DNA of 64,000 bases from Alicyclobacillus hesperidum (GTDB lineage: Bacteria; Bacillota; Bacilli; Alicyclobacillales; Alicyclobacillaceae), in NCBI RefSeq assembly GCF_900107035.1, contig NZ_FNOJ01000010.1, positions 1 to 64,000 on the forward strand, in the 5' to 3' direction. The notes under the pieces are model-generated. The model made no database searches and was not told the origin of the DNA. It saw only the letters and a list, made by a program, of their open reading frames with translations. Shown one piece after another: positions 302 to 19,098 of the stretch (positions are counted from its first letter, which is position 1; each line of letters opens with the position of its first letter). The translations under genes and the position numbers were made by a program.

Positions 302-376
302 CATCCGGTTTTGGTGGAGGCGAGGCTCCTCGGCCTGAAATCCTCAGGTACACGATATATGTGTGACGGGGGATTG

Positions 377-1090: not shown

Positions 1091-1807
1091 TCACTCCGGG
1101 ATCGGCCATTCCTCCGCCGTGTTTACGTCCAACTGGAAGACACCCGAAAACAGCTGATAGATGTGCTCACACTGCTCATCGCCGCCGCAATACATTGGGG
1201 ACAACGCCACCGTTACAAAGTCCCACTGCCTTATATCTCGGAGATATTGTAGTGACTTCAGGATCTCTTCATCCGAAAACAACATCGGCTCGAATACGTT
1301 GTTGCTGGCGTTGAAATAGTCTAAATCGAGATCCAATATTACTGACCGGGTGAGATATCGATCCAATTTCCCACTGGAATACATTCGCTTGAAATCCTCG
1401 AGATATGGCACATGGATGCCGCTAAATTCACGTCCTGGCGGAATGTGCCTAGCGATGTGGCGCATTGCCAACCGGCGAGCTTCAAATGGGTCTGCATCCT
1501 CTGGGTATCGTGCAACAAAAAAGATTTGGTCTATGGTTCCTCGAGCAAAGCCCGGCCAAATGAAATTTGCAATGTCCATCCTCTCGGCCGCAAAATAAGC
1601 ATCTTCCAACCCCTGAATGTCGTAAAATCCCGCAACTTCAACCCCGTCGTAAAGATCATCAAGGTGTGCATCGAGGTGAACCAATGTGGCTAATGGCCGA
1701 ATCCAACCTCGTTCCCGAGCAATCTCCCAACGGTAAAAAACCCAATTATGATCGGGCATTATGAAGATTCTTCGGTCTGGAAAGCATATCCGCTTTGATA
1801 TATCCAC
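1091..1807 (-). CDS. UPF0489 arginase/deacetylase-fold protein
   Basis: 238 residues. HLDAHLDDL near residue 44 and ILDLDLDYF near residue 157 form the two Asp/His clusters expected of the UPF0489 (C5orf22-like) family, which shares the metal-binding arginase/deacetylase fold. ALSPMYCGGDEQ near residue 200 is also typical. The substrate is unknown. The start is GTG at 1807 behind GAGGTG, 19 bases after the stop of the ATPase gene, so the two are almost certainly cotranscribed. It is the last gene of the defence operon. A metal-dependent hydrolase working with the PHP-ATPase is the simplest inference. Family assignment is firm, function is not. Confidence 0.8.
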   Translation of the reverse strand: MDISKRICFPDRRIFIMPDHNWVFYRWEIARERGWIRPLATLVHLDAHLDDLYDGVEVAGFYDIQGLEDAYFAAERMDIANFIWPGFARGTIDQIFFVARYPEDADPFEARRLAMRHIARHIPPGREFSGIHVPYLEDFKRMYSSGKLDRYLTRSVILDLDLDYFNASNNVFEPMLFSDEEILKSLQYLRDIRQWDFVTVALSPMYCGGDEQCEHIYQLFSGVFQLDVNTAEEWPIPE

Positions 1808-1826
1808 AGAGCCACACCTCGGCCAC

Positions 1827-4592
1827 TTAAAAACCGTACTTCTCCTGACGCAGTTTGAAAGCGGAGTCGCCGCCCTCCATTACGGTCGTGATTGCATCTT
1901 TAACTACGGGTACATCAATAGAACCTTCGCTCAGAACAGTACCCTTGGAGTGATCGGCACTATTAGAATATCCGAACTGAACAACCAATTCAGCGTCACC
2001 ATTCACTACAAGATTGGCGTTGTGGCTTGAAAAAATCAGTTGCCTTTTTCGTTTCGCATCCCATATCTTATTGGCTATTTGAGATATCACAGCGTTATCA
2101 AGGTCATCCTCAGGTTGGTCAATGATGAGCGGAGGTCCCTCAATCGAGAGCAATACTCCAAGCAAGGCACTTGCCTGTTGTCCTGCGGAAGCGTCCGTGA
2201 AATCAATCGCCTCCCCACCCGGCACCCTGTACTTAAATATCGGCTTTTGCTTTAGACGGTACAACAGAAGGGAAGAATACTTGTCTAAGTCCAGCCTCAG
2301 CGCTAAACGGCGAATTTCTGTTTCGATAAATACCCCCCTTAGATGCTCTAGGTCGGGAAGGCCGTGGGATTCGATATTTTCGGAGGTCAACTCGCAAACG
2401 GTTCGGAGCTCGGCTAAAACAGATAACCACTTGGCGAAGGGATCTTCCGATTCAAGCAGTATATTGCAAAGTGAATTTATCTTCTCAGATGTAATATTTG
2501 CTCCCTGAAATGTCTCACGGATGAACGTAGACAAGTCACTCATGTCGGCAACAGGTGCCAGTGCAGCTTCAATTTGTCCCCCAGACAAAGCTGTCAGAGA
2601 CGCACATTGGTGCTGATACAGTTCTCTTTCCTCAGCATAAATCTGCTTCAGATCGTACAACTTCCTTTTTAAGTCCTCTGATGGGTTACCGAGTGCTTTA
2701 AGCTTATCTTCTGTCGTTTCAATTAAGCTTTCGGTTTGGACGATACGATCTTCTATATCTGAAAGCTGCTTCAAGGTCTCGTGGTAGGCTTTATTTCTTG
2801 CTAAGGCACTCTGGTATTTCACATCATGTTCATCACATGAGTCTTTGATGGTTGCCAACGTTTCCTGCCAATCAGGATCTGGCATTGAAAGACTGTTAAT
2901 TGTCGATAGTTTCTCTTTGAAATCAAGAACCTTTTTGCCTACCTGCTGGATTACGAGCCTAATCAATACCTCATTCGAGGATCCGGATGGTGCCATCGGT
3001 TCCAATCCATCAACTTCTTCACATACCTCTAGTAGCAGCCGTTGTTGCTCCCGCACCCGATTAACATAGGCGTATACTTTTTCGACAAAGGTCCTGTCTT
3101 GCATAAACTGCTGATGCAATTTTAAGGTCTGCTGGTCTTCGGGAGACAAATCGACCATCTGTTCCCGCAGCGCCTTGCTCTGTTCCCTCAACGAGGCGAG
3201 AGAGGAGCGGTGCTCACTGAGTGATCGGAGGTAACGCTTATACTCTCTGTCCGCCACCAAGTCTTGCCGTACCCCTGTGGAAGTCCCTTCGAATTTGTCT
3301 TTCAGACTCCGGAGCTTCTCCTGAATGGGAAGTTCAATGAACCTCCTTAGTTCTTGCACATTTACGCCCACTGTACTCAATTGTTTTTGGCTATATGCTT
3401 GGATTGGTAACAGCGATCGAACCTCATCGGCAGTGGCTAATCTCGGTGTGCTGTCTGCAATAGACAATTGGATTGAATGATCGACCGTAGACCGCACAAC
3501 GGCGTGCGGAACTCCGTTGATACTCCAACGAACTGTGACAACACCTCGTACATTCTCCAGGGTGTTTTTCACTAGATCCGTCCGTTTTTTCTCAAAGGTA
3601 GGCAAATCCGTTTCAAATTCAACAGGTTGGTCGCAAAGTCCCCACCTAATATATTCAAGGAGGCTGGATTTGCCTGTACCACGTCCCCCAATAAGAGCAT
3701 TAAATTGGGGATTCATTTTTACATCCACAGGACCGAGGAAGCGACTTGCTGAAACCTCAATACCGTCGATATGGACCTTTGGAAGCGAGGGTGTGTCATG
3801 TGAAATGCGACAATCTTGGGATAGGCATGCTTGACGGATCGCTTCAGTGGAAGGTCTTGTCCATTTGACCCATGTACTGAATCGGCCTAGCTCTGAGAAA
3901 TCTGCATCTCTGGCGTCGGATGTTTGAAATACACCGTATGCACGACTGGACCACTCAGGAATCTTTCCTTCAAGAATACGTCTGTCACTCGCTCGAATCG
4001 ATTCGTAGGTGACCCCCTCAACATAGCCACCGACGCAAGGTAATTTTGAGAAAATCGTGTGATTTCCACGACGCATAAAAGTTTTGTGACCATCGGGCTT
4101 AACATTCGGAAGTACGATATAGCGCTCTACGAGCTCAGGAGTCTCATTCAATCTGCTGACAATATCTTGTACCGAAAGGTCCAATTGTGTAATCGCACAG
4201 GTCTGAGCTTCTGAATCCAGGGACGGTGTAATACCTAGCTTTGGAAGCACACTCCTATACGCAGTAATATCTATGTCGGGATCAAATAGAAGAAGTAGCT
4301 GCGCTGATGGCCTGGCAATGGAAACTTCGACACCGGGAAAAACCGTTACAAGCACTCCATCGGTTTGTTCTGCTTCCAGAGCAGCTTCCTTTATGTACTG
4401 GAAAAACACGACATCATGATGATCCGTAATCGCCACAGCGTGAAGCCCCGTATCAATACAATGTCTTATAAAATCTTCGGCATAGGACTTCCGTTCGCTT
4501 TCAGTGACCGCTCGAGTTCCATTCCAGTTGATATCACGAGGTGAATGAACCTGGAAATCACAACGATGAAAGTGAGCTCCGTTGTCACGCAC
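1827..4592 (-). CDS. PHP-domain AAA/SMC-like ATPase, TrlF type
   Basis: About 921 residues. The N-terminus is a PHP metallo-phosphoesterase domain: FHRCDFQVHS near residue 8, ITDHHD near 55, PGVEVS near 86. After it comes a split ABC/SMC-like ATPase, with Walker A GGRGTGKSS near residue 302, a long coiled-coil middle, and Walker B LIIDQPEDDLD near residue 820 followed by a D/H-loop-like SSHN. This is the layout of TrlF-family proteins, found in defence and conflict loci. I prefer GTG at 4592 because GGGAGGT sits at the right distance; a TTG at 4607 lies just before that site. It forms a transcription unit with the UPF0489 gene and probably couples DNA or RNA sensing by the ATPase to nucleic-acid cleavage by the PHP domain (inference). 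Confidence 0.82.
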   Translation of the reverse strand: MRDNGAHFHRCDFQVHSPRDINWNGTRAVTESERKSYAEDFIRHCIDTGLHAVAITDHHDVVFFQYIKEAALEAEQTDGVLVTVFPGVEVSIARPSAQLLLLFDPDIDITAYRSVLPKLGITPSLDSEAQTCAITQLDLSVQDIVSRLNETPELVERYIVLPNVKPDGHKTFMRRGNHTIFSKLPCVGGYVEGVTYESIRASDRRILEGKIPEWSSRAYGVFQTSDARDADFSELGRFSTWVKWTRPSTEAIRQACLSQDCRISHDTPSLPKVHIDGIEVSASRFLGPVDVKMNPQFNALIGGRGTGKSSLLEYIRWGLCDQPVEFETDLPTFEKKRTDLVKNTLENVRGVVTVRWSINGVPHAVVRSTVDHSIQLSIADSTPRLATADEVRSLLPIQAYSQKQLSTVGVNVQELRRFIELPIQEKLRSLKDKFEGTSTGVRQDLVADREYKRYLRSLSEHRSSLASLREQSKALREQMVDLSPEDQQTLKLHQQFMQDRTFVEKVYAYVNRVREQQRLLLEVCEEVDGLEPMAPSGSSNEVLIRLVIQQVGKKVLDFKEKLSTINSLSMPDPDWQETLATIKDSCDEHDVKYQSALARNKAYHETLKQLSDIEDRIVQTESLIETTEDKLKALGNPSEDLKRKLYDLKQIYAEERELYQHQCASLTALSGGQIEAALAPVADMSDLSTFIRETFQGANITSEKINSLCNILLESEDPFAKWLSVLAELRTVCELTSENIESHGLPDLEHLRGVFIETEIRRLALRLDLDKYSSLLLYRLKQKPIFKYRVPGGEAIDFTDASAGQQASALLGVLLSIEGPPLIIDQPEDDLDNAVISQIANKIWDAKRKRQLIFSSHNANLVVNGDAELVVQFGYSNSADHSKGTVLSEGSIDVPVVKDAITTVMEGGDSAFKLRQEKYGF

Positions 4593-5050
4593 AATGTAAC
4601 CTCCCAACGAATTATAAATCCAAACAAAATTCTACATATTCTTCCGCCTATGGCCAACCCCCAACGACAAATTTGTTATGATAACATTGGAGATTTTGAA
4701 GGTTATCCCATTGTGGATATGGTAGTGTCCCCCTAGAACAAAACAGTTAATGGCGCAGGGAGCGGATTTGAAGATGCAGGTACACTGGGAGCTAAGACAT
4801 CAAAATATCACTCTCTACGAGCTAAGCACGGAAACTGACCATTTTAGTTCCAGCCGTGACACATTCGGATCGAAGTTGACTTTCAGTCTTCAGGTGGAAC
4901 CAAACTTTGCGTACCTGGTCTCGGTTCCACACGTATCCTCGCTGAAATTCAGATAGAGCAATATGGCCTAGATCGATTTGATCCAGAATCGTAGATATTT
5001 TCAGTACAACACCTCCATGGTAATAAGATATGCAGTTATCATTGACGAAG
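4593..5050. other. Intergenic spacer inside the defence cassette
   Basis: About 460 bases with no credible gene. The minus strand has TATAAT at 4611-4616 just before the ribosome site of the PHP-ATPase gene, but no matching -35 and too little leader for a normal start point. The spacer and the terminator at 5051-5075 split the cassette into two transcription units. Confidence 0.5.
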
Positions 5051-5075
5051 GAAAGGGGCGCAAAGAGCCCCTTTC
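5051..5075 (-). terminator. Terminator after the Res gene
   Basis: GAAAGGGGC (5051-5059) pairs with GCCCCTTTC (5067-5075), a 9-bp stem with a 7-base loop, one base beyond the Res stop codon. The U-tract is short on the minus strand, so read-through is possible. Confidence 0.6.
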
Positions 5076-5076
5076 A

Positions 5077-7716
5077 TCATACCTCCTGCGCACTCTTGAC
5101 CACACGATAATCGACGTTGAGAGTGTCGAAATGGGCTTCACCACACTTGATTTTCGCCTGTTCGCTGTCCCGAAGATCGCCTAGATAAGTCGAACCCTTG
5201 GTCTCCCGAACCAGATACAGCTTGGTAGCCTCGTCCCTTGACTGCTTCACAATCGCCCAGTCCGGGTTATACGATCCGACCGGGGTCTCAATCTTGAACC
5301 AGCCCGGCAGCTTAACGAAGAAACGTATATCCTCCCTCGTATCAAGCGCCTTTGCAAATTCAAGCTCAACGTTCGAATCAACCTCAATGTGATCGTACAC
5401 CGATTTATTCACTCTCACGATTCGGCTCTCATAGAGGCTCAATTCCTCTTCGAACCCACCATCATCTTCACGGAATTTTTTCAGCATCTCATATTCCTGG
5501 CCCGTCAGCTCATACCTGATGCCTTCAATCATCAGACTTTGCAACGTCTCACGGATGGCACGGGTTGCAAAATCAAGAAACTGCTGTGGATTCACAAACA
5601 CATCGCTCAGTCGCCCGGATTGAATCAGAATTTCCGCAATGGTGCCACGTGTCAACTCTGTTTGTCGCTGAATGTACCCAATCAGATCCGGAACTTCACT
5701 GCTGGAAGTAACGGATTGCTGCCGAACACCCAGCATCTTCGTGGTGACACCTTGCTCCGTAATGTCAATTCCACTCTTTACAGCATATATGGAAGGCGTG
5801 CTGATCGCCGGCATTTTCTTGACTGCTGAAGCTGCCTGTTCAATGAGTACCTTCGTGTCGTATTCAACGGAGTACCGAGTCTTGTGTTTGATGCGGTTCC
5901 AAAGTTCAACGAAATCTTTGTTATCACGGAGGTCTTCTCGACGGCGCACGGTCCTTCTTTCCCGCTTGTTGTCCGGTTTCGGGAATTTGTCACCTGTCTC
6001 TTCCTCGATCTCAGTTTGCAACGAGCGTGCGAAGTCATCATAACTCTCGTTTGCGATCACCGTCAGGCGATTGATGGGATGATCCAAGATGCGTTGACCC
6101 GTTTCGTCCACCGGAAGACGAAGGCCTCGACCGATTTCCTGCCTCTTTTTGATCTCGGATTTGGTTTCATTGAGCGTGCAAATCTGAAACACATTTGGGT
6201 TGTCCCATCCTTCACGCAAAGCGGAGTGACTGAAAATAAACCGGAGAGGCTCTTCTCTCGAAAGGAGACGCTCCTTGTCTTTCATGATGAGTTCATACGC
6301 CTCATCATCCGCCTGCGTATTCCCTGACGTATCCTTGGCGTTGCCTTTCCTATCAGTTGCAAAGTAGCCATTATGCACTTTCTCGACAGGTGGTAGTCCC
6401 AATACTGAATATCTCGGGTTCCGGGCCAGTTCCGTGTAGGCTTCCTCAAACCATTTTCGAATCTTGCCGTCTTCATCGGCATAGTTAGCCACCCGATCTA
6501 TGAAAAATAGCGAAAGAACCTTGAGACGCTTGCCTTCGGGGAACTCCTTGTAGACTCTAAGTTCCTTTTCCAGATGTTCTTTGACCGTCTCTTGTACTTG
6601 TACCCGCATCACATCGTCCTGGTGTGCGCCGATTGCCTGTCCAACATGAAGGGTGACTCCATTCGTGAAGGCAATATAACCGTTGCCGGCGTCGATATGA
6701 TCCACGATGTACCCTTGATAGGCAGCACGACCGTTTGACACATCAAACAAATCCGTTCCATTTTGGCTGACGCTAACGGTCTTGCGTGATGGACCTTCTT
6801 CACCCTGGACATCAATCGTCAGTTTCGCCGTAATCTTCGTTTTGGTCGGCGTGATGGATTCTACACGAATGAAAGGTCGGTTGAAATCCGGATCGTCGAT
6901 TACTGAATCCACCTCGATACGCTTGACCAGCTTCATTTCGTACGCCTTAACAGGGCCAAGACGATACAAAAGATTATACATTTTACGGTGCGTTGCACTG
7001 TACCGAAGCGTGCATAACGGATTCAGGCTGGCGATAGCTTCCTTTGCCTGGGTACTCTCCATATTTTGCGGCTCATCCAAAATAACGACGGGACGAGTGC
7101 TTTGGATGAACTCAATGGGTTTATGCCCAGACAGGCGGTCGTTCTCCCGGTGAATGACATTGTTCGTCTTCTTATTGAAAGCGTCGATGTTGATCACAAG
7201 AATCTGTAGTTGGTTGGATGTCGCAAACTGCCGCAATGACGAAACCAATTTGGAATCATACACCCAATAGTCGAATGGCTGCCTACCATAGATGTCCTCA
7301 AAATGTTCACGGGTGATCTCAAGGTTTTTCAGGACACCTTCACGAATGGCAACGCTAGGCACAACAATGATGAATTTTGTGAAGCCGTACTTGGCGTGCA
7401 GCTCATGAATCGTACGTAGATAGACGTACGTTTTACCCGTCCCTGTCTCCATCTCCAGGGAAAAGTCCATTCCACTATAGGTTTCCGCTTGATTGATCCC
7501 ATTTCTTGTTTGGATCCGCTTCACGTTCTTAACAACGGTTTCCCAGTCAATCAAGAGCTCGTTTCCAAAGCCAAGCTCTGTCATAAGGCCGCCAAATCCG
7601 GCGTCCAAACGTGTTTCAAATTGCCCGGCAGCCTGCGGTTGACCGTCAAAAATATCAACTACGGATTGGATGGCGTCCAATTGATATTGTTGGTTTCGTT
7701 CAAATTGTATCTTCAT
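5077..7716 (-). CDS. Type III-like restriction Res subunit (helicase-nuclease)
   Basis: 879 residues, a normal length for a type III Res. Superfamily 2 motifs are intact: Walker A METGTGKT (89-96), DEPQ (214-217) in place of DEAD/DEAH, SATHR near 239, and the late motifs SALREGWDNP and QEIGRGLRLP near residues 505-545. The C-terminus has a PD-(D/E)xK nuclease core, NPDW near 817 and ETK at 838-840. It should translocate or loop DNA and cut when paired with the methyltransferase encoded 12 bases upstream. ATG at 7716 follows GGAGGTGG. Its association with a SNF2 helicase gene is unlike a plain type III system. Confidence 0.88.
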   Translation of the reverse strand: MKIQFERNQQYQLDAIQSVVDIFDGQPQAAGQFETRLDAGFGGLMTELGFGNELLIDWETVVKNVKRIQTRNGINQAETYSGMDFSLEMETGTGKTYVYLRTIHELHAKYGFTKFIIVVPSVAIREGVLKNLEITREHFEDIYGRQPFDYWVYDSKLVSSLRQFATSNQLQILVINIDAFNKKTNNVIHRENDRLSGHKPIEFIQSTRPVVILDEPQNMESTQAKEAIASLNPLCTLRYSATHRKMYNLLYRLGPVKAYEMKLVKRIEVDSVIDDPDFNRPFIRVESITPTKTKITAKLTIDVQGEEGPSRKTVSVSQNGTDLFDVSNGRAAYQGYIVDHIDAGNGYIAFTNGVTLHVGQAIGAHQDDVMRVQVQETVKEHLEKELRVYKEFPEGKRLKVLSLFFIDRVANYADEDGKIRKWFEEAYTELARNPRYSVLGLPPVEKVHNGYFATDRKGNAKDTSGNTQADDEAYELIMKDKERLLSREEPLRFIFSHSALREGWDNPNVFQICTLNETKSEIKKRQEIGRGLRLPVDETGQRILDHPINRLTVIANESYDDFARSLQTEIEEETGDKFPKPDNKRERRTVRRREDLRDNKDFVELWNRIKHKTRYSVEYDTKVLIEQAASAVKKMPAISTPSIYAVKSGIDITEQGVTTKMLGVRQQSVTSSSEVPDLIGYIQRQTELTRGTIAEILIQSGRLSDVFVNPQQFLDFATRAIRETLQSLMIEGIRYELTGQEYEMLKKFREDDGGFEEELSLYESRIVRVNKSVYDHIEVDSNVELEFAKALDTREDIRFFVKLPGWFKIETPVGSYNPDWAIVKQSRDEATKLYLVRETKGSTYLGDLRDSEQAKIKCGEAHFDTLNVDYRVVKSAQEV

Positions 7717-7728
7717 GGCGCCACCTCC

Positions 7729-9600
7729 TTATACCGTGTGGAATTCGATGCCATGTGATTCCATCAGAAGTTTGGTGTTGGTCTTCAGATTGTCATTACC
7801 GTTGAAGGACGCATCAAGACATACAAAGCCTCGAGGATACATACCCAAAACTCCCTGAATGTACTGTTCATTCACGCTATCACCGAGACAGATTAGCAAC
7901 GCACCGTTGGCGATGGAGAACGTCCGTTGTCCACTGATATCGATCTGCTCGATAGTAGCACTCAAAGGTAACCCAGACTTCAACAGTATTTCGTACAATA
8001 AGTCAAGAGATTCACGTCCAGGTCTTATGTTGTCGGCGAATAATTTCAATTGCCTTGCAAGGTTTTCGACATTCCCCTCACCAGTACCATTCCATACCTT
8101 GAAGTTGCTATCGCTTAACCTAAACACCTTGAAATCCCCGCCAAGGGCTTCAAGCTGCTCTGTCCCACGAATCACTCTCCGTACTCTTTCCTTGGCAACA
8201 TCTGCAATGGTGGGGAACTCCTCTATCCCTGTTGGCTCCGGTAGTTGAATTAGGATAAACTTCCGATTCCCTCCATCTTCATGGTTGAGATCAAGAACGG
8301 CATGTGCAGTCGTCCCGGAACCTGCGAAGAAATCCAATACTATGTCATTGTCCGACGTAGCCTGTTCGATAAGTGTCCTTATCAATCGTGAAGACTTGGG
8401 GTAATTGAAGACTTGCGAATCAAAGATCGCCCGTAATTCCTTCGTTCCGTGAGAGTTCAATGGGGCTTGAAGAATACTAGCGTCATCATCAAATTGCTCT
8501 GCCGCCACGTCGTTTTGTGATCGAGAAGATCCCTCAATCCAAGTGCTCACAGGTTTCCTCTCCGATCTCAATTCGGATTTATGGCGCTTATAATAGGGTG
8601 TTCCTTGCCCATTCTTGGGGAAAATCACTTTGCCTTCATCTATCAATCTAAGCATCCGCTCCTTTTCGTATGCCCAAACTCTGTTTGGATTACATTGGTA
8701 GGTGATACCGGTAGCGGGATCAGTGATTGGATAGAACAAGTTTGGTCGCTCGTCAGCGGTTTTGTTGCATGTTAAATTATCAACAGCCCATGGTCCACGA
8801 GGATCATTGTCTGGATTCGAGTAGTTTGCGAAATCCTTCAGGATGCCATTTAGTTTGGTGAACTCAGTTCTTGCATAAGCCACCAAATACTCATGATCGC
8901 TTGAAACAAAATTCTTTGAGTCATTTGAGCCTGTCCGTCTTTTCCATACGAACGTGGCTATAAAATTTTCTTCGCCAAACAGCTCGTTCATCAGGATTCT
9001 TAAATTGTGTATTTCGTTGTCGTCGATAGATACAAAAATAACTCCATCTTCTCGCAACAAATTCCTTGCTAAAAACAACCTCGGATACATCATGTTGAGC
9101 CACTTTGAGTGAAAGCGCCCATCGGTCTCGGTATTTGTCGAGAGCTTGATCCCATCGCCGTCGACCTGCCCAGAATATCGCAGGTAATCGTCGAGTCCTT
9201 CACGGAAATTGTCCGGATATATGAACTCATTCCCAGTGTTGTATGGCGGATCGATGTAAATCATCTTTATCTTTCCGTGGTAGGATTTCTGGAGCAGCTT
9301 CAAGACCTCAAGGTTGTCCCCTTCAATAATGAGGTTCTCGCTAGTTTCAAAGTTTACGGATTCCTCTGGAACCGGGAGTAGGGTTCCAACGCTCGGCGTT
9401 TGGATGTTTCGAATTGCTTCACTCTTACCAGCCCATGTCAATCTGTAACGTTCACGACCATTGTCTACAAAATCCCCAAGGGCCATCTTCAGTCGTTCAA
9501 AATCGATTTTCCCCTCCGAAAATACCTCTGGAAACTCTTCACGTATACGTTCAATCTTTTCAGCCAAAATGTCTTTCGATGTGAGTGGAAGTTTGTCCAC
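7729..9600 (-). CDS. Type III-like adenine-N6 DNA methyltransferase (Mod)
   Basis: About 623 residues. The catalytic motif DPPY (near 117-120) precedes the SAM-binding motif FFAGSGTT (near 415), the order of beta-class amino-methyltransferases and of type III Mod proteins. The variable middle should be the target recognition region. GTG at 9600 has GGAAGGGGAG upstream at good spacing; an ATG at 9630 would overlap the previous gene's stop. It lies between the SNF2 helicase and Res genes with tight spacing on both sides, so the three are one operon. It probably marks host DNA so that Res and the helicases act only on foreign DNA. The target sequence cannot be read from the protein. Confidence 0.88.
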   Translation of the reverse strand: MDKLPLTSKDILAEKIERIREEFPEVFSEGKIDFERLKMALGDFVDNGRERYRLTWAGKSEAIRNIQTPSVGTLLPVPEESVNFETSENLIIEGDNLEVLKLLQKSYHGKIKMIYIDPPYNTGNEFIYPDNFREGLDDYLRYSGQVDGDGIKLSTNTETDGRFHSKWLNMMYPRLFLARNLLREDGVIFVSIDDNEIHNLRILMNELFGEENFIATFVWKRRTGSNDSKNFVSSDHEYLVAYARTEFTKLNGILKDFANYSNPDNDPRGPWAVDNLTCNKTADERPNLFYPITDPATGITYQCNPNRVWAYEKERMLRLIDEGKVIFPKNGQGTPYYKRHKSELRSERKPVSTWIEGSSRSQNDVAAEQFDDDASILQAPLNSHGTKELRAIFDSQVFNYPKSSRLIRTLIEQATSDNDIVLDFFAGSGTTAHAVLDLNHEDGGNRKFILIQLPEPTGIEEFPTIADVAKERVRRVIRGTEQLEALGGDFKVFRLSDSNFKVWNGTGEGNVENLARQLKLFADNIRPGRESLDLLYEILLKSGLPLSATIEQIDISGQRTFSIANGALLICLGDSVNEQYIQGVLGMYPRGFVCLDASFNGNDNLKTNTKLLMESHGIEFHTV

Positions 9601-9622
9601 GATACGTTCTCCCCTTCCTATT

Positions 9623-12442
9623 TCATACAACAGTCCAGCGAATAGTAAACAACGGTTTCAAACGATGAGTCTGCTTCAATTGACGCTCAATATTTTCGAT
9701 TAACTCGTTGCGCTTCGCATCAATCGCATCTTGTGCTTCGTACAATTCCCGCCGTTTCTTATTTCGCTGCGTCTCTATGTCACGTTGTGCCTTCTGCGCC
9801 GCCAGCTTATCTGCGAGAGAAACCGCAGTGGTGGAAGCACGACGCAATTCTCGAATTTGCTTATCGAGGTCTTTAATTTCCTGTTCCAATCCAAACTTCA
9901 GATCATCCGCCCATCGGTCCAGCTTGGCAACTTCCTCATCAAAGAATCTCCCGTTCTTTTCCTCCACAAGATGTAGCTTCTCCTTGACGATTTTCGCTTC
10001 AAATTGCTCAACCGAGGCTGGTGGTATGGCAGAAGGATCTATCTGCCTCACCATGGCCTTTGGTTTAAATAGTTTCAGACAGGTCTCTTCGTCCACTATT
10101 CCTCCGTCATCAGTGATCCCGGAGAAAACAAGAAACTCTTCGAGTTCGAGCGATTCTACTGCCAATTCGGTGACTTGGAGCCACCCTGATTTGCCCTTTA
10201 ACGCCTGCACGGTGCTAATCAGGCCTTCATAGTCAGAATAATGAATGGCCAGTTCAGCGGGTGGCAACTCCCTCGTAACGGCCCGATCCACAAGGGCTTG
10301 GGCCAACGGATGGTCTATCCGAAAGAAGTTATCGCCATTTACCTCTGCGGCTTTCCAGTCAAGATGATAAATCCCAGACGGTGCATCATTTCCCGAGTAC
10401 CTGAACCGTGGTGTCGAGTCATCGAACAACGCATCATTTGCGAGTTCTACTTTAGCAAGTGACAGCAGGTATTGTTGCTGTTCCGACAACCGTTCGGTCG
10501 CTTGCCCCTCATACACCTTGAGTCGGGCATGTACATCCTCATCGAAATTGTCCAGTAGCGCCCGCCGGGTTTCAGTCAAACGGCTTTCAATCGACGACTC
10601 CAATTCCTTTTGCAGGGCGTCAAAGGCAGCATTGATTTCCTCGACCGTTCGGCACTCTTGGTACACTTGAGCGATTCTCTTTTCGAGGTCGACTCCAGAT
10701 TCCAGCGCTCCAAGGACTTCATCGCTGGCGCCAAAAATCCCACTAAACAACTGAAATTTTTCCGCCAATAATTCGTATACCCGTTGATCGGCTTCGTTTC
10801 TCTTGTTCAAAAAGTTTACAACAACTACATCATGTTTCTGTCCATACCGGTGACAACGGCCAATTCGTTGTTCAACACGCTGCGGGTTCCACGGCAGGTC
10901 GTAATTGACAATTAATGAACAAAACTGGAGATTCACACCTTCAGCAGCGGACTCCGTGGCGATGAGGATGGTCGCTCTATCCCGAAATTCCTCGATGAGT
11001 GCCGCACGAATGTCTGCGCTCCGGGACCCGGTGATGACGGATTCACCCTCGTGTCGCTTCAACCACTCTTGGTATATGTGTGTCGACAGGGGATCGTTGT
11101 TCATCCCGTTGAAGAGTACGATTTTGCCTTCATAGCCGTTATCCGTCAGGAGTTGGAACAGGTATTGCTGCGTACGTCGAGATTCTGTAAAGATGACCGC
11201 TTTCTCCCTCGCACCAAGGGATTTTGCCTTATCCATCGCTTTGTCCAGCACAGTGAGAAGCGCATCGCCCTTCGCATTGTTCCGGATGCTTTCTGCCAAA
11301 TCAGCGTACCGTCGTAAAAGCGATAACTCCTCCGCCAGAAGTTGCGGATCGACACGTTCTTCCTCCGTTGTGTCATCCCATTCATCTTCCAGTTCATCCA
11401 TTCCCTCGTAGTCATCTGCCACTTCTTCAACGTTTATCGGCTGAAGATTTTCCAGGCGCCGGATGAGACCACGAAGCGTTCCCGCAATCGCAAAAGTCGA
11501 TGACGCAAGCAGTTTGCGCAATACAAGCGTCATCAGGCTACGTTGACTGGCTGGCAATGCCAAGAGGACTTCTCGGCGGAGGTATTCTGTTACCTCTTCA
11601 TAGAGCCGGTGTTCATCATCACTTGGAGTAAACTCCTGTGTGATAGGGATCCGGTTCGTGTACCGTATATATTCCAGCACTTGTTTCCGCAGGGTTCGAG
11701 TGCAAATAGGAGCCAACCTTTCCCGCAATAGCTGATTTCTGTCCTCCGACGATTGTCTCGTAAACTGTGCCTGAAACGATTTGTCATCTCCAAAGACATT
11801 CGGATCCACGATACTGACAAGCCCATAAAGCTCCATCAGACTATTTTGCAGCGGCGTAGCCGTAAGCAAAAGCTTTTTCGTACGGGCCAACGTCGCCTGA
11901 ATGTTCTTCGCTAATTTGTTGGTGGACTTGTATACGTTCCGCAGGCGGTGGGCTTCATCCAGAACTGCAAGATCCCAAGATACCTGTGATATAAATTCCG
12001 ACTTTGCGGCCGCAAAGTGATATGAGCAGATGACTACCTGATTGCGCAGATCAAACGGGTTCGAATGGCCTTGACGCAACAGGCTGTTGAAAGACTTCGC
12101 TTCCAGGATGACAGACGGCAGATGGAATTTCTCCTCCAGCTCCATCGCCCACTGCTTACGCAATGTGGCTGGAACGACGACAATCAGCTTTCGACGGCGC
12201 TCCGCCCAGCGCTGTGATAACACCAGACCTGCTTCAATCGTCTTGCCGAGCCCAACTTCGTCGGCGAGAATGGCGCCTTGTGACAGTGGTGACCGCAATG
12301 CAAATAAAGCCGCATCTATCTGATGAGGGTTCACATCCACCCTTGCGTTTGCAGCGGCTCTTGTGATTCTATCAAAGTCGTCTGTAGCAGCACGCATCGT
12401 TAGCAGATGCGCCCATAGTTTTGAATGATATGGCGTCGACAT
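9623..12442 (-). CDS. SNF2-family helicase, DrmD/RapA-like
   Basis: 939 residues. Motifs are Walker A DEVGLGKT (61-68), DEAH (162-165), TATP (194-197), and the SNF2 late motif with QRIGRCHRYGQ near residue 550. The C-terminal third is charged and coiled-coil (about 850-930). Similar SNF2 helicases head class 1 DISARM cassettes (drmD next to the methylase drmMI) and other helicase-methylase-ATPase defence loci. It has no nuclease motif that I can see. ATG at 12442 has GAGGGA upstream. It is the first gene of the operon, and the right-hand 28-base repeat lies in its upstream region. Confidence 0.88.
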   Translation of the reverse strand: MSTPYHSKLWAHLLTMRAATDDFDRITRAAANARVDVNPHQIDAALFALRSPLSQGAILADEVGLGKTIEAGLVLSQRWAERRRKLIVVVPATLRKQWAMELEEKFHLPSVILEAKSFNSLLRQGHSNPFDLRNQVVICSYHFAAAKSEFISQVSWDLAVLDEAHRLRNVYKSTNKLAKNIQATLARTKKLLLTATPLQNSLMELYGLVSIVDPNVFGDDKSFQAQFTRQSSEDRNQLLRERLAPICTRTLRKQVLEYIRYTNRIPITQEFTPSDDEHRLYEEVTEYLRREVLLALPASQRSLMTLVLRKLLASSTFAIAGTLRGLIRRLENLQPINVEEVADDYEGMDELEDEWDDTTEEERVDPQLLAEELSLLRRYADLAESIRNNAKGDALLTVLDKAMDKAKSLGAREKAVIFTESRRTQQYLFQLLTDNGYEGKIVLFNGMNNDPLSTHIYQEWLKRHEGESVITGSRSADIRAALIEEFRDRATILIATESAAEGVNLQFCSLIVNYDLPWNPQRVEQRIGRCHRYGQKHDVVVVNFLNKRNEADQRVYELLAEKFQLFSGIFGASDEVLGALESGVDLEKRIAQVYQECRTVEEINAAFDALQKELESSIESRLTETRRALLDNFDEDVHARLKVYEGQATERLSEQQQYLLSLAKVELANDALFDDSTPRFRYSGNDAPSGIYHLDWKAAEVNGDNFFRIDHPLAQALVDRAVTRELPPAELAIHYSDYEGLISTVQALKGKSGWLQVTELAVESLELEEFLVFSGITDDGGIVDEETCLKLFKPKAMVRQIDPSAIPPASVEQFEAKIVKEKLHLVEEKNGRFFDEEVAKLDRWADDLKFGLEQEIKDLDKQIRELRRASTTAVSLADKLAAQKAQRDIETQRNKKRRELYEAQDAIDAKRNELIENIERQLKQTHRLKPLFTIRWTVV

Positions 12443-12865
12443 TGCATTTTCCCTCTCAAATGAAGATCCCGTATAGTTTGCCTTCTTACATTTTACTACA
12501 GGCTACCAAAATCTACGATAGTGATGGATGGTACACAGGACAAGCATCCCTAAAATGAGAGGCTATGAGGAGAGCATCCCGCCTCATCTATGAAGAGGGA
12601 TTTTTCTTTCTTATTTCCCCTAGTCCTCTTAAGCCCCGATTTCTGCATTGGAGGCAGCCCTCGGAAAACCGCAGCAGACATGAATTTTGAAAGGGATTCT
12701 CAGATGGCATGTAAACACGGATTGTCCAGTAACCATCGGACTTTTGTATCCGATTCTTTATTACCCCTACTCCTCAATACCGGTCCAAACAACTTTCGGG
12801 CCTGACACTTGCATCATCCATTTGAGGCTTGATAGGTTTTCCCTCAATCAAAAGGGGGGATGAAA
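12443..12865. other. Divergent intergenic region between defence and primase genes
   Basis: About 420 bases without a credible gene. It holds the right 28-base repeat (12493-12520). At 12565-12587 ATGAGG pairs with CCTCAT, and an alternative pairing of ATCCC with GGGAT just before TTTTTC near 12600 would form a weak terminator on the plus strand. This could be an attenuator, but the stems are short. Confidence 0.4.
12493..12520 (+). repeat. Right copy of 28-bp direct repeat flanking the defence block
   Basis: Same orientation as 134-161 with 24 of 28 matching positions by eye. It lies just upstream of the SNF2 helicase start, between that gene and the primase gene. Confidence 0.5.
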
Positions 12866-14650
12866 ATGTACGCCAAAGCCTTAACTATATTACAAGCGCA
12901 GGACCGGATGCTTCCTGTGTTGAAGGGGCCACCAGTACAGTGTGCTCTGTGTGGACGTGTTTTTGACCGGATCACACCTGGGCACCTCAAAACGCATGAA
13001 CAATATTTGCGCTCCAAAAGAGGGGTGAAATGGTTTCGGCCAAAACCAGAACGTAAGGAAGAGAACGACGACGCAGAAGCACATTTCTCGCCAGATAACG
13101 AGCACGAGCCGAGTCCGTGGAAATCACGTCCCGAGACGTTCATGGAAACGTACCAGCGCTTATTCGGTTCAAAGGATCGGCTTACTGCTTGCATCAAGAA
13201 GTTGTTTGATCTATATCAACCGCATCGAGGCAAGTGGTTGCTCATGGACAAGCCCGTATTGCCCATGTACGCCACGTGGTATCAAGTGTCGGACAATGAC
13301 CCAGCTTTCAAACCGAATCGGTTGTGCGTGAGTATCTTGAAGGAACATTTAACGCTGAAGTGTACTGTGGGGGTTTTTTCTAAGAGTCAGTACGAGACGC
13401 ACTTTTTGTCATGGGATATCGATGCGATGCGATTGTATGACAATCCTTTATGGGACGCTGCTCTGGAAGCTCGAAGGGCTGCAACGGCTATCTCCGAGCT
13501 CCTTAGGAAATGGGGGCTTCACCCTCACATCATCATCAGTGGGAGAAAAGGTTATCATGTGACGGTCTACTTTAGGCGTGGAGTCTCAATCAAAATTGCA
13601 ATGCAATTGTTTCAGGCTGTGCTCCAACATCGAGAAGGTCCGCAAATTGGAACAGGTCTTAAAGTAGAATGCTTGCCGATTCAGCGTGGAAACAAGCTGC
13701 CACTCGGAATCAACTGGAGTGCCGAAAGGTATTGCGGTTTCGTGGATCCCTATACCCTGGATCCAATTGCAAACCCGTATGAGTATCTCTTGAACATCGT
13801 TCCTGACGACCCTACGGTTCTGTACGAAATTGAGGATGAAGGGTTGAGCCAACGACAACACAAGCGCAAGCGCAAGCGCACTGTCATTTTGGAGAAATCC
13901 TGGAGCGAGGATCAAACAGAAGCGGCATTCAAATTGGGAGTCATTGCACCAAGCACACGGCATGATACGCTTGTCCGGGTTGCAGCGTATATTCGAAACA
14001 CACCGTCGCTTTGCCCCGATTCCCTCGCTGAGTTCATCGATGTTCTGATATCATGGTCTCGTAAGCAATACGAACAACATCGAGAGAACATTGGAACGAC
14101 TTGGACGGAACACATGAGAGACGTGCATCGAGTGGCAAAATATGCGTGGACACATCCTTTGACTTCTGGCGTACCGAGAGTCATAAAAGTGACGGCGGCT
14201 ATTGTACACTGGATTCGTGGCCAAACTACAGTGCTTGCCGAACAGCAAGTGATGTTCGCTGCGTGGTTCCAAATGTCGAATGTAGGGGGATGCTTCCATC
14301 TGGGATATGAACAGGTGCGGGACATGACCCATTTAGCGAAGGATAGTCTAGATCGGGCTATGAAGGGGCTTCGAGACAAGGGTATTTTGGTTGTTCAGGA
14401 AGAATATTTTAATGGAAGAGACGGTATTTTTCCGTCAAAAACGAGAAAATATTGTTTCGGCAACCCGCCTGGAAAGTCCTCACATCAAGCCGTTCTCTTG
14501 ATTTTGACCAAGGAACAATGGGACCCAACCTTGTGGTTCCGCCTGTTAGTCTCACTTTTCACTAAGGAACAGTTGAAGAACTGGTATCCTTTCGCTTACC
14601 ATCGCATCTGCCGGGTTGAGCCAATTCTTCTCGGGCGCTCCACCGCTTGA
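12866..14650 (+). CDS. Archaeo-eukaryotic-type primase with N-terminal zinc finger
   Basis: About 594 residues. Near residue 26 is a Ros/MucR-like zinc finger (CALCG, then HLKTHE), a likely DNA-binding module. The middle has the three marks of the AEP primase superfamily: motif I SWDID near 182, motif II SGRKGYH near 225, and a motif III region ending KLPLGIN near 278, as in phage, plasmid and TOTE-type primases. A short KRKRKR stretch near 338 precedes a helical C-terminus that may be winged-helix. The first ATG (12860) touches the ribosome site AAAGGGGGG, so the second ATG at 12866 is the better start. It probably initiates element replication. No helicase domain is visible. Confidence 0.75.
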   Translation: MYAKALTILQAQDRMLPVLKGPPVQCALCGRVFDRITPGHLKTHEQYLRSKRGVKWFRPKPERKEENDDAEAHFSPDNEHEPSPWKSRPETFMETYQRLFGSKDRLTACIKKLFDLYQPHRGKWLLMDKPVLPMYATWYQVSDNDPAFKPNRLCVSILKEHLTLKCTVGVFSKSQYETHFLSWDIDAMRLYDNPLWDAALEARRAATAISELLRKWGLHPHIIISGRKGYHVTVYFRRGVSIKIAMQLFQAVLQHREGPQIGTGLKVECLPIQRGNKLPLGINWSAERYCGFVDPYTLDPIANPYEYLLNIVPDDPTVLYEIEDEGLSQRQHKRKRKRTVILEKSWSEDQTEAAFKLGVIAPSTRHDTLVRVAAYIRNTPSLCPDSLAEFIDVLISWSRKQYEQHRENIGTTWTEHMRDVHRVAKYAWTHPLTSGVPRVIKVTAAIVHWIRGQTTVLAEQQVMFAAWFQMSNVGGCFHLGYEQVRDMTHLAKDSLDRAMKGLRDKGILVVQEEYFNGRDGIFPSKTRKYCFGNPPGKSSHQAVLLILTKEQWDPTLWFRLLVSLFTKEQLKNWYPFAYHRICRVEPILLGRSTA

Positions 14651-14725: not shown

Positions 14726-14936
14726 ATTCGGTTTTTTACCCACCAGTCATATTTTATGTTCGGCTTTGCACCCGTCTAGGGATACCTCGACGTGTAAATA
14801 ACCGAATGAAACCCGTGAAAATACCGCACTACTGCGGGATATCCCTCCTTTAACTCGGATAGCTGGTCATGCTCCCTGCTGTTCATTCGGTTTTTCACCC
14901 ACAGTGTCTGCATCAAATTCGGTTAAGCACCCAATG
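14726..14936. repeat. Cluster of five related 19-bp repeats with 32-bp phasing
   Basis: Copies start at 14726, 14758, 14885 and 14917 on the plus strand, and one inverted copy spans 14791-14807. The shared pattern is ATTCGG, four to six mixed T-rich bases, then ACCC. Starts within each pair are exactly 32 bases apart, near three helical turns. The last two copies lie inside the 3' end of the recombinase gene. They look like binding sites for a recombinase or replication protein, for example part of an attachment or origin region. Confidence 0.6.
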
Positions 14937-16420
14937 CTTTTTGCCAGGTTCACAAACGGCGACAAACGGAAGCAGATTGATACCTTGGCTACGGTTGTAA
15001 AATCCACATCCACCTGCTGGATGACGAAGAAACAAAATGTGCGACGCTCGGTATCGCTTAAAAGGTTTACCCAGTCGGTTTCCATGAATCTTGCTATCCA
15101 ATCATCGAACGTAGAATTTTGAGAAAGTGCCGATACCTCCTCCAAAAGAGAAATCGACCTCTGGACTTTTTCCTTGGAAGCAGTCTCCCGCAACGAAATA
15201 AGTTGTTCCCACTTCTCTGCATACGGCGTTGAAGTAGATAACGTTGCCCGCTGATATCTCGCCTCCTCGAGTTCGGCATTTGCATTTCGTTGCGCCACAA
15301 GGATCTCCTTTTTCCACCGAACAAGTGTGTTTCGTGCCTGGCTTTTGAAAAGACTGATTCGTCCGGGCCATTCTCGAGCGATCTGTTTCAAGACGACCTC
15401 ATCAAGCTTGGATGTTGCGATTTTCTGCCCACACGATGGACATACATAATGAACGTATCTCTTTGAAGAGCGAGCAGGTGTGCTGTCCTTGACAAGCAAA
15501 CCAACGCCGCACTTTTTGCAGTGAGCCAATCCTTGAAGAAGGTTTGGTGTGTTAAATTTCATCCCGGTTTCCTTTTTGACGGTTCGCAGTTCGTGAACAA
15601 TATCCCAGAGCGGTCTGGGAACAATGGCATCAATTTGCCCTTCAAACAAATCGTACTGTCCAATCGGTTTCCGAGCGCTATTTGAATAGCCTTTGCGCCG
15701 GTTCCACGCAAGGTTTCCGCAATAAACTGGATTATTCAAAACCACATCAATGGTGCTCGTACGCCACTCACCCGACCTCGGGGAGGGGATTCCAGCTTTA
15801 TTCAAGATGACGGCGATCTGAGCGTCTGCATATCCCCATGAGGCGAGATAGAAAATGAACAGGGCCACGCCGGCGGTCTCGCCAGGAACCAGCACACCGT
15901 TGTGCCATTGATATCCATATGGCGCAGGCGCACCCGGTCGTCGAGGACCTCGAGGATCATGAAGCAACATACTTTGTGCGTCAATGGCACGAGTGGATTT
16001 TACGGTCGAATCATATTGCGCCATCAAGAGCTGTGCCTGCACTACCGGTGACTTTGGATCCCACAAACCTGTCGTTGCATTGAAAAATTCGCATTGTGGT
16101 TTTCGCTCTTTAATTGGATTGAAAACCTGCAATACGAAGTCCGACATTTGCCGACTTACACGACTTTCATCATAAAAGAAGACTCCGTTCACGGCGTCAT
16201 GTTCTAGCACAGTTGTCAGAAGCGCCTTCATGGCATCTCGCTTGAGCGCCGGTTTTCGATATGCACTCACTGCGTCATCGATAAACCATTCGATGATTTC
16301 GTATCCGTTCAACTCTGCGCACCGCAAGACCTGACTACGTTGAATTTCTAACGAGTGGTTTTGCCGCTGCCGCTCGCTTGATCGACGCAAATACGCAACC
16401 CCGTTACGCCGTTGCTTCAT
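14867..16420 (-). CDS. Large serine recombinase, second of tandem pair (CcrB-like position)
   Basis: About 517 residues. The catalytic domain opens with YLRRSSERQ near residue 8, supplying the nucleophilic Ser. The recombinase domain follows, then a zinc ribbon (CKKCG near 308 and CPSCG near 333), a coiled-coil part (about 370-440) and a short tail. ATG at 16420 has GGAGGTGA upstream. It overlaps the preceding recombinase gene by 17 bases, so the two are translationally coupled. Tandem large serine recombinases of roughly 450 and 540 residues are the hallmark of SCC elements, where both act together in excision and insertion. Whether these two pair functionally is inference. Confidence 0.85.
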   Translation of the reverse strand: MKQRRNGVAYLRRSSERQRQNHSLEIQRSQVLRCAELNGYEIIEWFIDDAVSAYRKPALKRDAMKALLTTVLEHDAVNGVFFYDESRVSRQMSDFVLQVFNPIKERKPQCEFFNATTGLWDPKSPVVQAQLLMAQYDSTVKSTRAIDAQSMLLHDPRGPRRPGAPAPYGYQWHNGVLVPGETAGVALFIFYLASWGYADAQIAVILNKAGIPSPRSGEWRTSTIDVVLNNPVYCGNLAWNRRKGYSNSARKPIGQYDLFEGQIDAIVPRPLWDIVHELRTVKKETGMKFNTPNLLQGLAHCKKCGVGLLVKDSTPARSSKRYVHYVCPSCGQKIATSKLDEVVLKQIAREWPGRISLFKSQARNTLVRWKKEILVAQRNANAELEEARYQRATLSTSTPYAEKWEQLISLRETASKEKVQRSISLLEEVSALSQNSTFDDWIARFMETDWVNLLSDTERRTFCFFVIQQVDVDFTTVAKVSICFRLSPFVNLAKSIGCLTEFDADTVGEKPNEQQGA

Positions 16421-18438: not shown

Positions 18439-18559
18439 GTCGTAATTTTGGACTTTTGGCCCGTTCGCCTTGTAAGGTATCCCCATCAACAGCACTAAAT
18501 CTTGTTCCGCCGGGGTCATGTGGGGATTCCTAAAAATGTACGATGTTGTAAATTTGGAC
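18439..18559. promoter_or_regulatory. Operator-like direct repeats in divergent region
   Basis: GTCGTAATTTTGGAC at 18439-18453 recurs as GTTGTAAATTTGGAC at 18545-18559, matching 13 of 15. Both lie between the SinI-like gene and the small recombinase-domain gene, which face away from each other, so they could be repressor sites controlling both. Confidence 0.4.
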
Positions 18560-18621
18560 AAACCTCTGGCGGATCGCATAAGGTGCTTGTCAGAGTCCAA
18601 AACCGAAAGGGGAAATGTCAT

Positions 18622-19098
18622 ATGTCACAAACTACACATGTCAACCCAATAAGCAGTGGACAAGAGCCATCCACTGTGCTGATGGAACGTGTTCTGCATG
18701 CGGTCAATGAGCCCGAACGTCAGAAGCGGTCTCGTAAGGCAAAGGCAGCCTGGCAACGTAGGCGGGAGAGGTTATTTCGTGCTTCGCACGACGAAGCATT
18801 CATTTATGTGCGTTCAACAAATGCTGACGATTTTCAATTACAAGAATCTCTTCTGAAAGACAAAGCGGCAAAGCTCGATCTTCAATGCACGCAAGTGTTC
18901 TACGACAGTTGCACCGGCATAACAGATCCATTCGCCAGGCCTGGATTCTCGCAGCTCATGAAGGCCGTACGGGCGATTCCCACTGTTTCAATAGTATTGG
19001 CTGTTGACCTGACCCGTATTGGTCGGTCAAGGACATATCTGTCCCACGTCAAGTCGCACCTCAAAGACCATGGCGTTGAGTTGATGCTCGGCAAGTAA
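18622..19098 (+). CDS. Stand-alone serine recombinase catalytic domain
   Basis: 158 residues. A basic N-terminal tail (KRSRKAKAAWQRRRER near 35) precedes a resolvase-type domain. YVRSTNADD near 62 corresponds to YVRVSTxxQ with one residue fewer, so the catalytic Ser may be displaced. DLTRIGRS near 133 matches the DRLxRS motif. The protein ends where the DNA-binding or recombinase part should start, without obvious frameshift debris after it. ATG at 18622 follows AAAGGGG. It may be a degenerate or regulatory recombinase subunit rather than an active enzyme. Confidence 0.65.
   Translation: MSQTTHVNPISSGQEPSTVLMERVLHAVNEPERQKRSRKAKAAWQRRRERLFRASHDEAFIYVRSTNADDFQLQESLLKDKAAKLDLQCTQVFYDSCTGITDPFARPGFSQLMKAVRAIPTVSIVLAVDLTRIGRSRTYLSHVKSHLKDHGVELMLGK

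Follow-up and report, generated by a model that had tools for sequence, protein, structure and literature searches.

The 64,000-nucleotide stretch of Alicyclobacillus hesperidum DNA analysed here (hereafter the window) carries a minus-strand operon encoding a Swi2/Snf2 translocase (SNF2), a DNA methyltransferase (Mod) and a helicase-nuclease (Res), which amounts to an ordinary type III restriction-modification (R-M) core combined with an unusual, nearly constant third gene and a slot for cargo genes. The three genes are read, at a probability of about 0.6, as one system, i.e. a type III R-M enzyme with a dedicated RapA-like SNF2 motor on double-stranded DNA that aids restriction. As seen from SNF2, the association is close to invariant, with type III Mod and Res genes located near SNF2 in 74 of 78 distinct loci and arranged in the order SNF2-Mod-Res on one strand in 71 of them.

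The operon forms part of a run of five long open frames, all on the minus strand between 1091 and 12442 and all apparently intact, for which the first-pass annotation had proposed an SNF2 helicase, Mod, Res, a PHP-ATPase and a UPF0489 protein. Pfam, PADLOC and NCBIfam agree with these identities, and the main catalytic motifs looked for were found in all five proteins. SNF2 carries the Pfam domains SNF2-rel_dom and Helicase_C, with K67 as its Walker A lysine. Mod matches Pfam N6_N4_Mtase and PADLOC MTase_III (655 bits), and its earlier assignment to the beta class is borne out by the motif order, in which DPPY (motif IV) at residue 127 precedes FAGSG (motif I) at residue 435. Res, credited in the same annotation with a nuclease core of its own, indeed matches Pfam RE_endonuc in addition to ResIII, as well as PADLOC REase_III (954 bits), and has the nuclease residues PD at 818 and ETK at 838. 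The frames of SNF2 and Mod share 8 bp, a gap of 12 bp separates Mod from Res, and the three genes are one operon. A GC-rich hairpin, read by eye and not listed by the terminator scan, lies right after the Res stop; the promoter and terminator scans gave no excess over shuffled sequence.

The survey of the SNF2 neighbourhood was seeded with SNF2 proteins alone, and neighbours were scored afterwards. Hidden Markov models were built for SNF2, Mod and Res from the window and 11 loci each, and then for a second Res type, DrmA, DrmB, DrmMII, TrlF and UPF0489. The genome scan comprised the best 80 of 562 matches, eight plasmid loci were chosen for host variety from 25 listed of 932 records before their neighbours were seen, and gene calls in the surveyed loci were mechanical. 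SNF2 scored at least 900 in 116 loci, the window included, of which 36 were dropped for having less than 8 kb downstream and two as duplicates, leaving the 78 distinct loci. SNF2-Mod-Res on one strand accounts for 47 of these, the same order, mostly with a long Mod (about 1,000-1,160 amino acids) and a second type of Res (the one example scanned matches PADLOC REase_III), for a further 24, and a Mod-Res pair in another order or strand for three. Named genome loci with the pair, within the set of 90 rows used for an SNF2 tree, span 12 phyla. The genes are also close together: of the 41 loci in which no same-strand gene of at least 150 amino acids separates SNF2 from Mod, 31 have a gap of at most 50 bp there, and the Mod-Res gap is at most 50 bp in 60 of 66 loci. 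Around other SNF2 genes, taken as a control, the Mod-Res pair was found in none of 16 loci (15 of them on viral contigs), and in a second control, comprising 74 viral loci centred on TrlF, Mod and Res were found in three, among them L308, which is the SNF2 locus L118 again. Further, the kind of Mod-Res changes only five times on the SNF2 tree, compared with a mean of 27.2 after shuffling and none of 200 shuffles as low, the tree being of a quick kind with long-branch warnings and containing near-copies that favour such clustering.

Comparison with three close relatives (loci L029, L031 and L032) revealed uneven conservation across the operon, with 87-95% identity in SNF2 and 90-95% in Res, and 50-63% in Mod. 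The DNA alignment to L031 is lost within the centre of Mod and then resumes, a divergence which, to judge from the sequence, looks like a change of target specificity. DNA similarity stops at 5077, the Res stop codon, in all three relatives, and between 12501 and 12535 at the other end, and these limits define a mobile unit consisting of the trio and its upstream region, without TrlF and UPF0489. Since similarity ends at the Res stop codon, TrlF and UPF0489 are separate cargo; the TrlF stretch of the window has no DNA homology in any of the three relatives.

By sequence SNF2 is DrmD-like, as previously annotated, its best PADLOC model being DrmD (704 bits), followed by BrxHI/BrxHII (234 bits), with HmaA at 175 bits. 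However, both NCBIfam DrmD families score below their cut-offs (NF038318, 710 of 950; NF038317, 260 of 610), and the DrmD match ends at residue 661, such that the last third of the protein lies outside the DrmD_b match. The RapA model PRK04914 also remains below its curated cut-off (171.9 of 576), and no nuclease domain was found on SNF2 in a Pfam scan at E 0.001. An AlphaFold2 model of SNF2 (mean predicted local distance difference test score 84.0) gave a Foldseek list headed by RapA, at modest TM-scores of 0.38-0.53. Among the 50 fold entries listed, only four extend past model residue 843, all of them RapA, and these align model residues 1 or 2 to 939 with RapA residues 122 or 123 to 966 (Z 20.9-22.0, root mean square deviation 4.2-9.0; for entry 8t0l_F, residues 1-939, Z 20.9, deviation 4.2 and 739 aligned residues). 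The N-terminal domain of RapA, which precedes the start of the alignment at its residue 122, has no counterpart in SNF2. RapA recycles RNA polymerase, according to the titles of the matched structure entries.

The trio resembles type III R-M systems of the EcoP1I and EcoP15I kind in its beta-class Mod, its Res with superfamily 2 helicase and PD-(D/E)xK nuclease, the adjacency of the two genes and a variable, exchangeable specificity region at the centre of Mod. It differs in that a RapA-like SNF2 gene heads the window operon and in that about half of its relatives contain embedded genes, of which the window has none. In type III systems, an asymmetric site is methylated by Mod (with Res) at an adenine of one strand, and Res, after using ATP and encountering a second complex, cuts DNA lacking the mark, between two unmethylated sites in opposite orientation; these enzymes, described with two subunits, travel long distances on DNA by sliding before they cut. 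SNF2 motors are believed to translocate on duplex DNA while leaving its strands paired, and for DarB-like phage proteins a pairing of methylase and helicase, likened to type III enzymes, has been put forward (PMC5512222). In the system proposed here, Mod (with Res) would mark one strand of an asymmetric site and Res would cut incoming unmarked DNA, while SNF2 would most likely walk on the duplex and strip or push bound protein, e.g. RNA polymerase or phage DNA-binding proteins; alternatively, SNF2 may remodel the Mod-Res complex itself. The result would be restriction that works on transcribed or protein-coated DNA. Both this role of SNF2 and phage restriction by the system at all are inferred.

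Several observations weigh against this reading. Four of the 78 loci are without the pair, L069 and L153 having neither gene and L101 and L111 a Mod match only, and six of the 12 loci with SNF2 scores of 300-900 have none of these arrangements, the others comprising four DISARM-type loci and two with SNF2-Mod-Res. The association is also lopsided. Around Res genes of viral contigs (of 80 loci retrieved, those having 5 kb or more upstream), SNF2 was found in five of the 22 closest loci and two of the 43 in the next group, compared with 21 and 42, respectively, for Mod. The link seen from Res is therefore weak, and most type III systems do without SNF2, which suggests that Mod-Res can live alone and that SNF2 nearly cannot. 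SNF2 and Res identities agree weakly (Spearman 0.19 over 54 triples, against 0.85 for Mod and Res), indicating that SNF2 has been re-paired often. Finally, the top fold Z-scores (up to 24.1) belong not to RapA but to other Swi2/Snf2 motors, aligned over residues 16-617, so the likeness to RapA rests on the C-terminal part and on the modest TM-scores given above. From the tree and the identities, the relation of SNF2 to Mod-Res is read as a lasting partnership with repeated re-pairing.

The main rival explanation, although an unlikely one, is that SNF2 is a RapA-like regulator or guard rather than a subunit, which would control transcription of the operon or sense inhibition of Mod-Res and then release embedded toxins. 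Consistent with such a role, the sole full-length match among the listed fold entries is an RNA-polymerase recycler, and the embedded genes are often of abortive-infection type. However, the trio occurs without any embedded gene of at least 150 amino acids in 36 of 81 loci, including the window, L031 and L032, and SNF2 has nothing corresponding to the N-terminal domain of RapA. It is improbable that SNF2 represents one more defence gene settled beside type III systems with no shared function. The lack of SNF2 in most type III systems, and the weak agreement of SNF2 and Res identities at depth, are in keeping with a settled neighbour, whereas the presence of Mod and Res in nearly all SNF2 loci across 12 phyla, the overlapping or near-touching frames and the clustering of Mod-Res kinds on the SNF2 tree are not; nor is the behaviour of the other genes in the slot, which turn over and differ in 59 of the 66 close pairs having any.

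Joint action of all five genes as one composite system is more improbable still. The five genes share a strand and an island, TrlF above its cut-off is found in or beside the SNF2 operon in L042, L118 and L095 (though only 18-20% identical to that of the window), and TrlF or a lower-scoring relative directly follows Res, without SNF2, in L193, L195, L192, L248 and L316. Against this, UPF0489 was found in none of the 115 other loci with an SNF2 score of at least 900, homology to the three close relatives stops at the Res stop, and 469 bp with the relic of a GmrSD/DUF262 gene separate the two units. The first-pass annotation had described a tight trio followed by a second unit, and had left the choice between a variant of a known defence system and two linked systems. 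The tight spacing was upheld by the 8-bp overlap and 12-bp gap; the second unit proved not to be part of the first, and two linked sets of genes fit better than one, the trio being neither DISARM nor Hma. The five-gene co-occurrence which it had proposed counting is rare, with TrlF in four and UPF0489 in one (the window itself) of 116 loci, which by the standard set in that annotation speaks against the five-gene cassette, and what recurs is the three-gene core as seen from SNF2.

Least probable of the explanations weighed is a reduced DISARM, with DrmD and a methylase functioning in the absence of DrmA and DrmB, given that, although PADLOC and NCBIfam both rank DrmD first and four counted DISARM-type loci (a fifth, L105, has too little downstream) pair DrmD, DrmA and DrmB with type III-like Mod and Res, the NCBIfam score is under its cut-off with a match ending at residue 661, DrmA and DrmB models grown from the single locus L157 match nothing in the 116 loci, and the four DISARM SNF2 rows group together on the tree, apart from the rest (on long branches). 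With class 1 DISARM (DrmD), and with L157 and its kin, the trio shares an SNF2 of the DrmD_b sequence family beside a methylase, and it differs in the absence of DrmA, DrmB and DrmMII and in the last third of SNF2. That drmA and drmB homologues are not visible had already been remarked, and the PADLOC scan agrees: DrmA or DrmB is the best match of none of the 10 island frames scanned, SNF2 itself giving a cross-hit to one DrmA model (123 bits), and the only MZB-domain match in the genome is on another contig (C14). DISARM was thus rejected on the lack of DrmA and DrmB and the DrmD scores of SNF2. DISARM loci with type III Mod and Res do exist, including L157 (8632-21936, in the order DrmMII-DrmD-Mod-Res-DrmA-DrmB), L106 and L156, while L155 and L105 have Mod and another Res type upstream of DrmMII. 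The L157-type loci show the closeness of DISARM and type III kinds.

Other described systems were likewise compared. MADS, reportedly described by Maestri et al. in 2024, was raised by a RefSeq name, MAD1, on the helix-turn-helix (HTH) gene of a related Escherichia coli locus, and was rejected because, among the E. coli proteins scanned, only this small excisionase-like HTH passes a MADS model (MAD1, 83.5 of 80). None of the SNF2, Mod and Res proteins scanned from E. coli falls in a MADS family, no NCBIfam MADS family was found for any of the five window proteins at E 0.001, no small HTH gene was seen upstream of the window SNF2 (12443-12535), and a PADLOC mad3 match to the window TrlF (61.8 bits) is one ABC-type ATPase model among many. 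In the E. coli loci L420 (11814-21283) and L421 (11814-22359), the genes present are SNF2, Abi, (AIPR), methyltransferase and DEAD/DEAH helicase, and it is their small upstream HTH that RefSeq calls MAD1. A close relative of the SNF2 of a Salmonella plasmid is carried by 29 of 5,426 complete E. coli genomes, in all cases on the chromosome. Hma and Type-1 BREX-related (BR) systems also combine a Swi2/Snf2 helicase with an N6 methylase and, in BR Type-1, a nuclease is fused to SNF2 in 79% of taxa (PMC12839542); Hma systems are further known to host embedded genes (PMC12255303). The window differs in having a Res subunit instead of the DUF499 ATPase, DUF1156 on Mod and nuclease on SNF2. DUF499 has no match in the whole genome, and Pfam at E 0.001 gives only N6_N4_Mtase, and no DUF1156, on Mod. 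The suggestion of an Hma-type variant therefore did not hold, the HmaA score of SNF2 being far below that of DrmD, and Hma was rejected. BREX type 3 has in BrxHII a RapA-like Swi2/Snf2 helicase that works with a methylase (PMC12839542), and the window differs in that no BREX core protein is listed for the other island frames in the PADLOC scan. No description of SNF2 as a partner of type III Mod-Res was found in the literature searched, which did not cover Payne et al. 2024 on embedded defences, where the slot may already be listed.

Embedded genes were compared across 89 loci that have the three genes in the order SNF2-Mod-Res, duplicates kept, with cargo defined as an internal gene of at least 150 amino acids. 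Among the 63 loci with the first Res type 37 contain such a gene, as do 10 of the 26 with the second type. Of the 88 internal genes, 83 were scanned (the five of L101 omitted) and the top 25 families listed, so the following counts are partial and overlapping. Pfam families comprised AAA_21 and AAA_15 (12 each, overlapping), AIPR (8), Schlafen AlbA_2 (6), RhuM and DUF4276 (4 each), Abi_2 and GmrSD_N (3 each), SIR2_2 and a Fic-like domain (2 each) and at least two transposase families (1 each). Up to 13 of the 83 proteins match any single PADLOC anti-phage model, with mad3 at 13, AriA models at up to 10 and Hma-embedded candidates and AbiU at up to 8, and these models overlap as well. Genes at the slot, which frequently belong to defence families, exchange rapidly: the difference in 59 of 66 pairs noted above refers to mutually non-independent pairs with SNF2 at least 60% identical and cargo in either member, and 24 more pairs are cargo-free. 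In the planctomycete plasmid locus L021 (14867-21304), SIR2 and HerA genes lie between SNF2 and Mod and an HEC-05-like gene between Mod and Res, i.e. defence modules nested in one operon. A full-length DUF262 gene lies between Mod and Res in L028 (16890-18161), the relic of the window lying after Res, and at the position of that relic L031 has a 5'-nucleotidase-family gene (10147-11199; PF06189, PADLOC PDC-S08). A stable pair of genes (about 380 and 920 amino acids) follows Res in L070 (17225-21132), L073, L076 and L152, all of them SNF2-Mod-Res loci, drawn from three named phyla and one viral contig, and the larger L070 protein is weakly LmuB/DndD-like.

The fourth gene of the window passes the NCBIfam cut-off for TrlF (466.7 bits against 350, residues 9-925 on profile positions 1-944) and has PHP, Walker A/B and signature motifs. 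Its closest known counterparts, the TrlF/Ppl PHP-ATPases, are mostly without Mod and Res nearby. Across 299 genomes of the phylum, TrlF scores above its cut-off in 12, counting the one from which the window comes. Full TrlF in the 116 loci is restricted to the window, L042 and L118, where it sits between SNF2 and Mod, and L095, where it precedes SNF2 (582-691 bits); L056 has a shorter relative after Res, below the TrlF cut-off. Plasmid TrlFs are closer to that of the window (37-38% identity) than are those of L042, L118 and L095. Where TrlF directly follows Res without SNF2 it scores 534 bits in L193 and 502 bits in L195, with the lower-scoring relatives in L248 and L316. In the Novosphingobium plasmid locus L192 (6067-11817), Res and TrlF form one open frame, the upstream Mod is broken and the public table lists no gene. 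A constant partnership of TrlF with type III systems was rejected, Mod and Res being found in only six of 91 TrlF-centred loci (three of the six nearest plasmid loci, none of 11 in the phylum and three of 74 viral). TrlF is thus an occasional, recurrent neighbour of SNF2-Mod-Res. On viral contigs, L257 (10001-11827) and similar loci among L248-L302 frequently show a TrlF-like ATPase without PHP (about 620-710 amino acids) followed by a gene of about 370-390 amino acids.

UPF0489 (32 bits, cut-off 27) was found beside TrlF or SNF2 nowhere besides the window in searches of plasmids, viral contigs and genomes of the phylum. Its candidacy as a constant TrlF partner was rejected, there being no plasmid match and none of 10 viral-contig pattern hits encoding a relative. 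It occurs in five of the 299 genomes of the phylum, the window's included; the other four, each with about 1.5 kb or less of flank on either side, comprise three frames of 312-316 amino acids with other neighbours and a fourth of 280. TrlF and UPF0489 came later, as further cargo of the mobile island that carries the trio; TrlF probably serves as a second line of defence in its own right.

A 20.8-kb island probably carries the five genes as cargo, as indicated by a 12-bp repeat shared with the end of the transfer-messenger RNA (tmRNA, ssrA) gene, a break in similarity to a sibling genome and the presence of serine recombinases (Table 1). The first-pass annotation was silent on this probable island, in which four serine-recombinase frames and a primase-polymerase accompany the five genes. 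The tmRNA gene ends at 21128 and its last 12 bases recur at 312 in direct orientation; the last recombinase frame reaches into the gene, antisense to it. The sibling genome is 99.5% identical rightward from 21127 and, over the 5 kb left of that position, does not match the window, whereas another genome retains similarity up to 20738. The G+C content is 0.46-0.50 in the first 20 kb and mostly 0.52-0.60 over most of the remaining window. The region 312-21127 (right repeat copy to 21139) is therefore a probable serine-recombinase island in the tmRNA gene. Its left end is less certain because the contig itself starts at base 1, with a multi-copy repeat (bases 1-76) that is present at several places in the genome, some near contig starts, and diverged in relatives; this repeat probably broke the assembly. 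A search of 395 loci at E 1e-15, which recovers known SNF2, Mod, Res and TrlF relatives, gave no match to the recombinases or the primase-polymerase of the window, and at E 1e-5 there are weak recombinase matches (LSR1 in 8, LSR4 in 7 and LSR2 in 1 of the 395).

Table 1. Features of the SNF2-Mod-Res operon and the probable tmRNA island, in window coordinates.
Feature	Position	Strand	Basis
Direct repeat TGGTGGAGGCGA, probable left attachment site	312-323	+	0.01 matches expected by chance
UPF0489 protein, 238 aa, arginase-fold family, separate cargo; likely metal-ligand motifs present	1091-1807	-	Open reading frame (ORF), profiles, motifs
TrlF-family PHP-ATPase, 926 aa, separate cargo	1827-4607	-	ORF, PADLOC, NCBIfam, motifs
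Relic of GmrSD/DUF262 N-terminus; frame soon hits stops	4890-5031	-	23.5 bits, below cut-off of 33.2
Res, superfamily 2 helicase with C-terminal PD-(D/E)xK endonuclease, 879 aa	5077-7716	-	ORF, Pfam/PADLOC, motifs
Mod, beta-class DNA methyltransferase of type III R-M, 633 aa	7729-9630	-	ORF, Pfam/PADLOC, motifs
Mod centre, about aa 226-603, likely specificity region, swapped between relatives	7821-8955	-	DNA alignment lost against L031
SNF2 (Swi2/Snf2) translocase, 939 aa, probable RapA-like architecture without RapA N-terminal domain	9623-12442	-	ORF, profiles, motifs, AlphaFold2, fold match
Upstream region conserved with the trio (to 12535 in L031, 12518 in L029, 12501 in L032)	12443-12535	-	DNA alignment
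Primase-polymerase, AEP type, divergent; island gene outside the core	12860-14650	+	AEP-TOTE 31.7 bits, cut-off 27
Serine-recombinase frame 1	14867-16453	-	ORF, profiles
Serine-recombinase frame 2	16404-17813	-	ORF, profiles
Serine-recombinase frame 3	18502-19098	+	ORF, profiles
Serine-recombinase frame 4	19425-21359	+	ORF, profiles
Second repeat copy, the tmRNA gene 3' end, right attachment site	21128-21139	+	tmRNA call; sibling-genome similarity breaks here

Beyond the reading of SNF2-Mod-Res as a type III enzyme with a dedicated motor, a broader and distinctly more tentative possibility is that the RapA-like SNF2 is a true third subunit of a widespread type III branch, that a core of motor plus methylase recurs in DISARM, BREX type 3 and Hma/BR with different effectors, and that the operon doubles as a platform, with embedded ATPase, AIPR, Abi, SIR2 or TrlF genes that might be backups firing when a phage blocks restriction. 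As the SNF2 motor is rarely seen without Mod-Res, and this across 12 phyla, a branch of the type III enzymes may have a third working part. One kind of helicase ties type III restriction to DISARM, BREX and Hma, and the slot within the operon offers candidate defence genes. The relative carried by a small number of complete E. coli genomes makes the question testable in laboratory E. coli.

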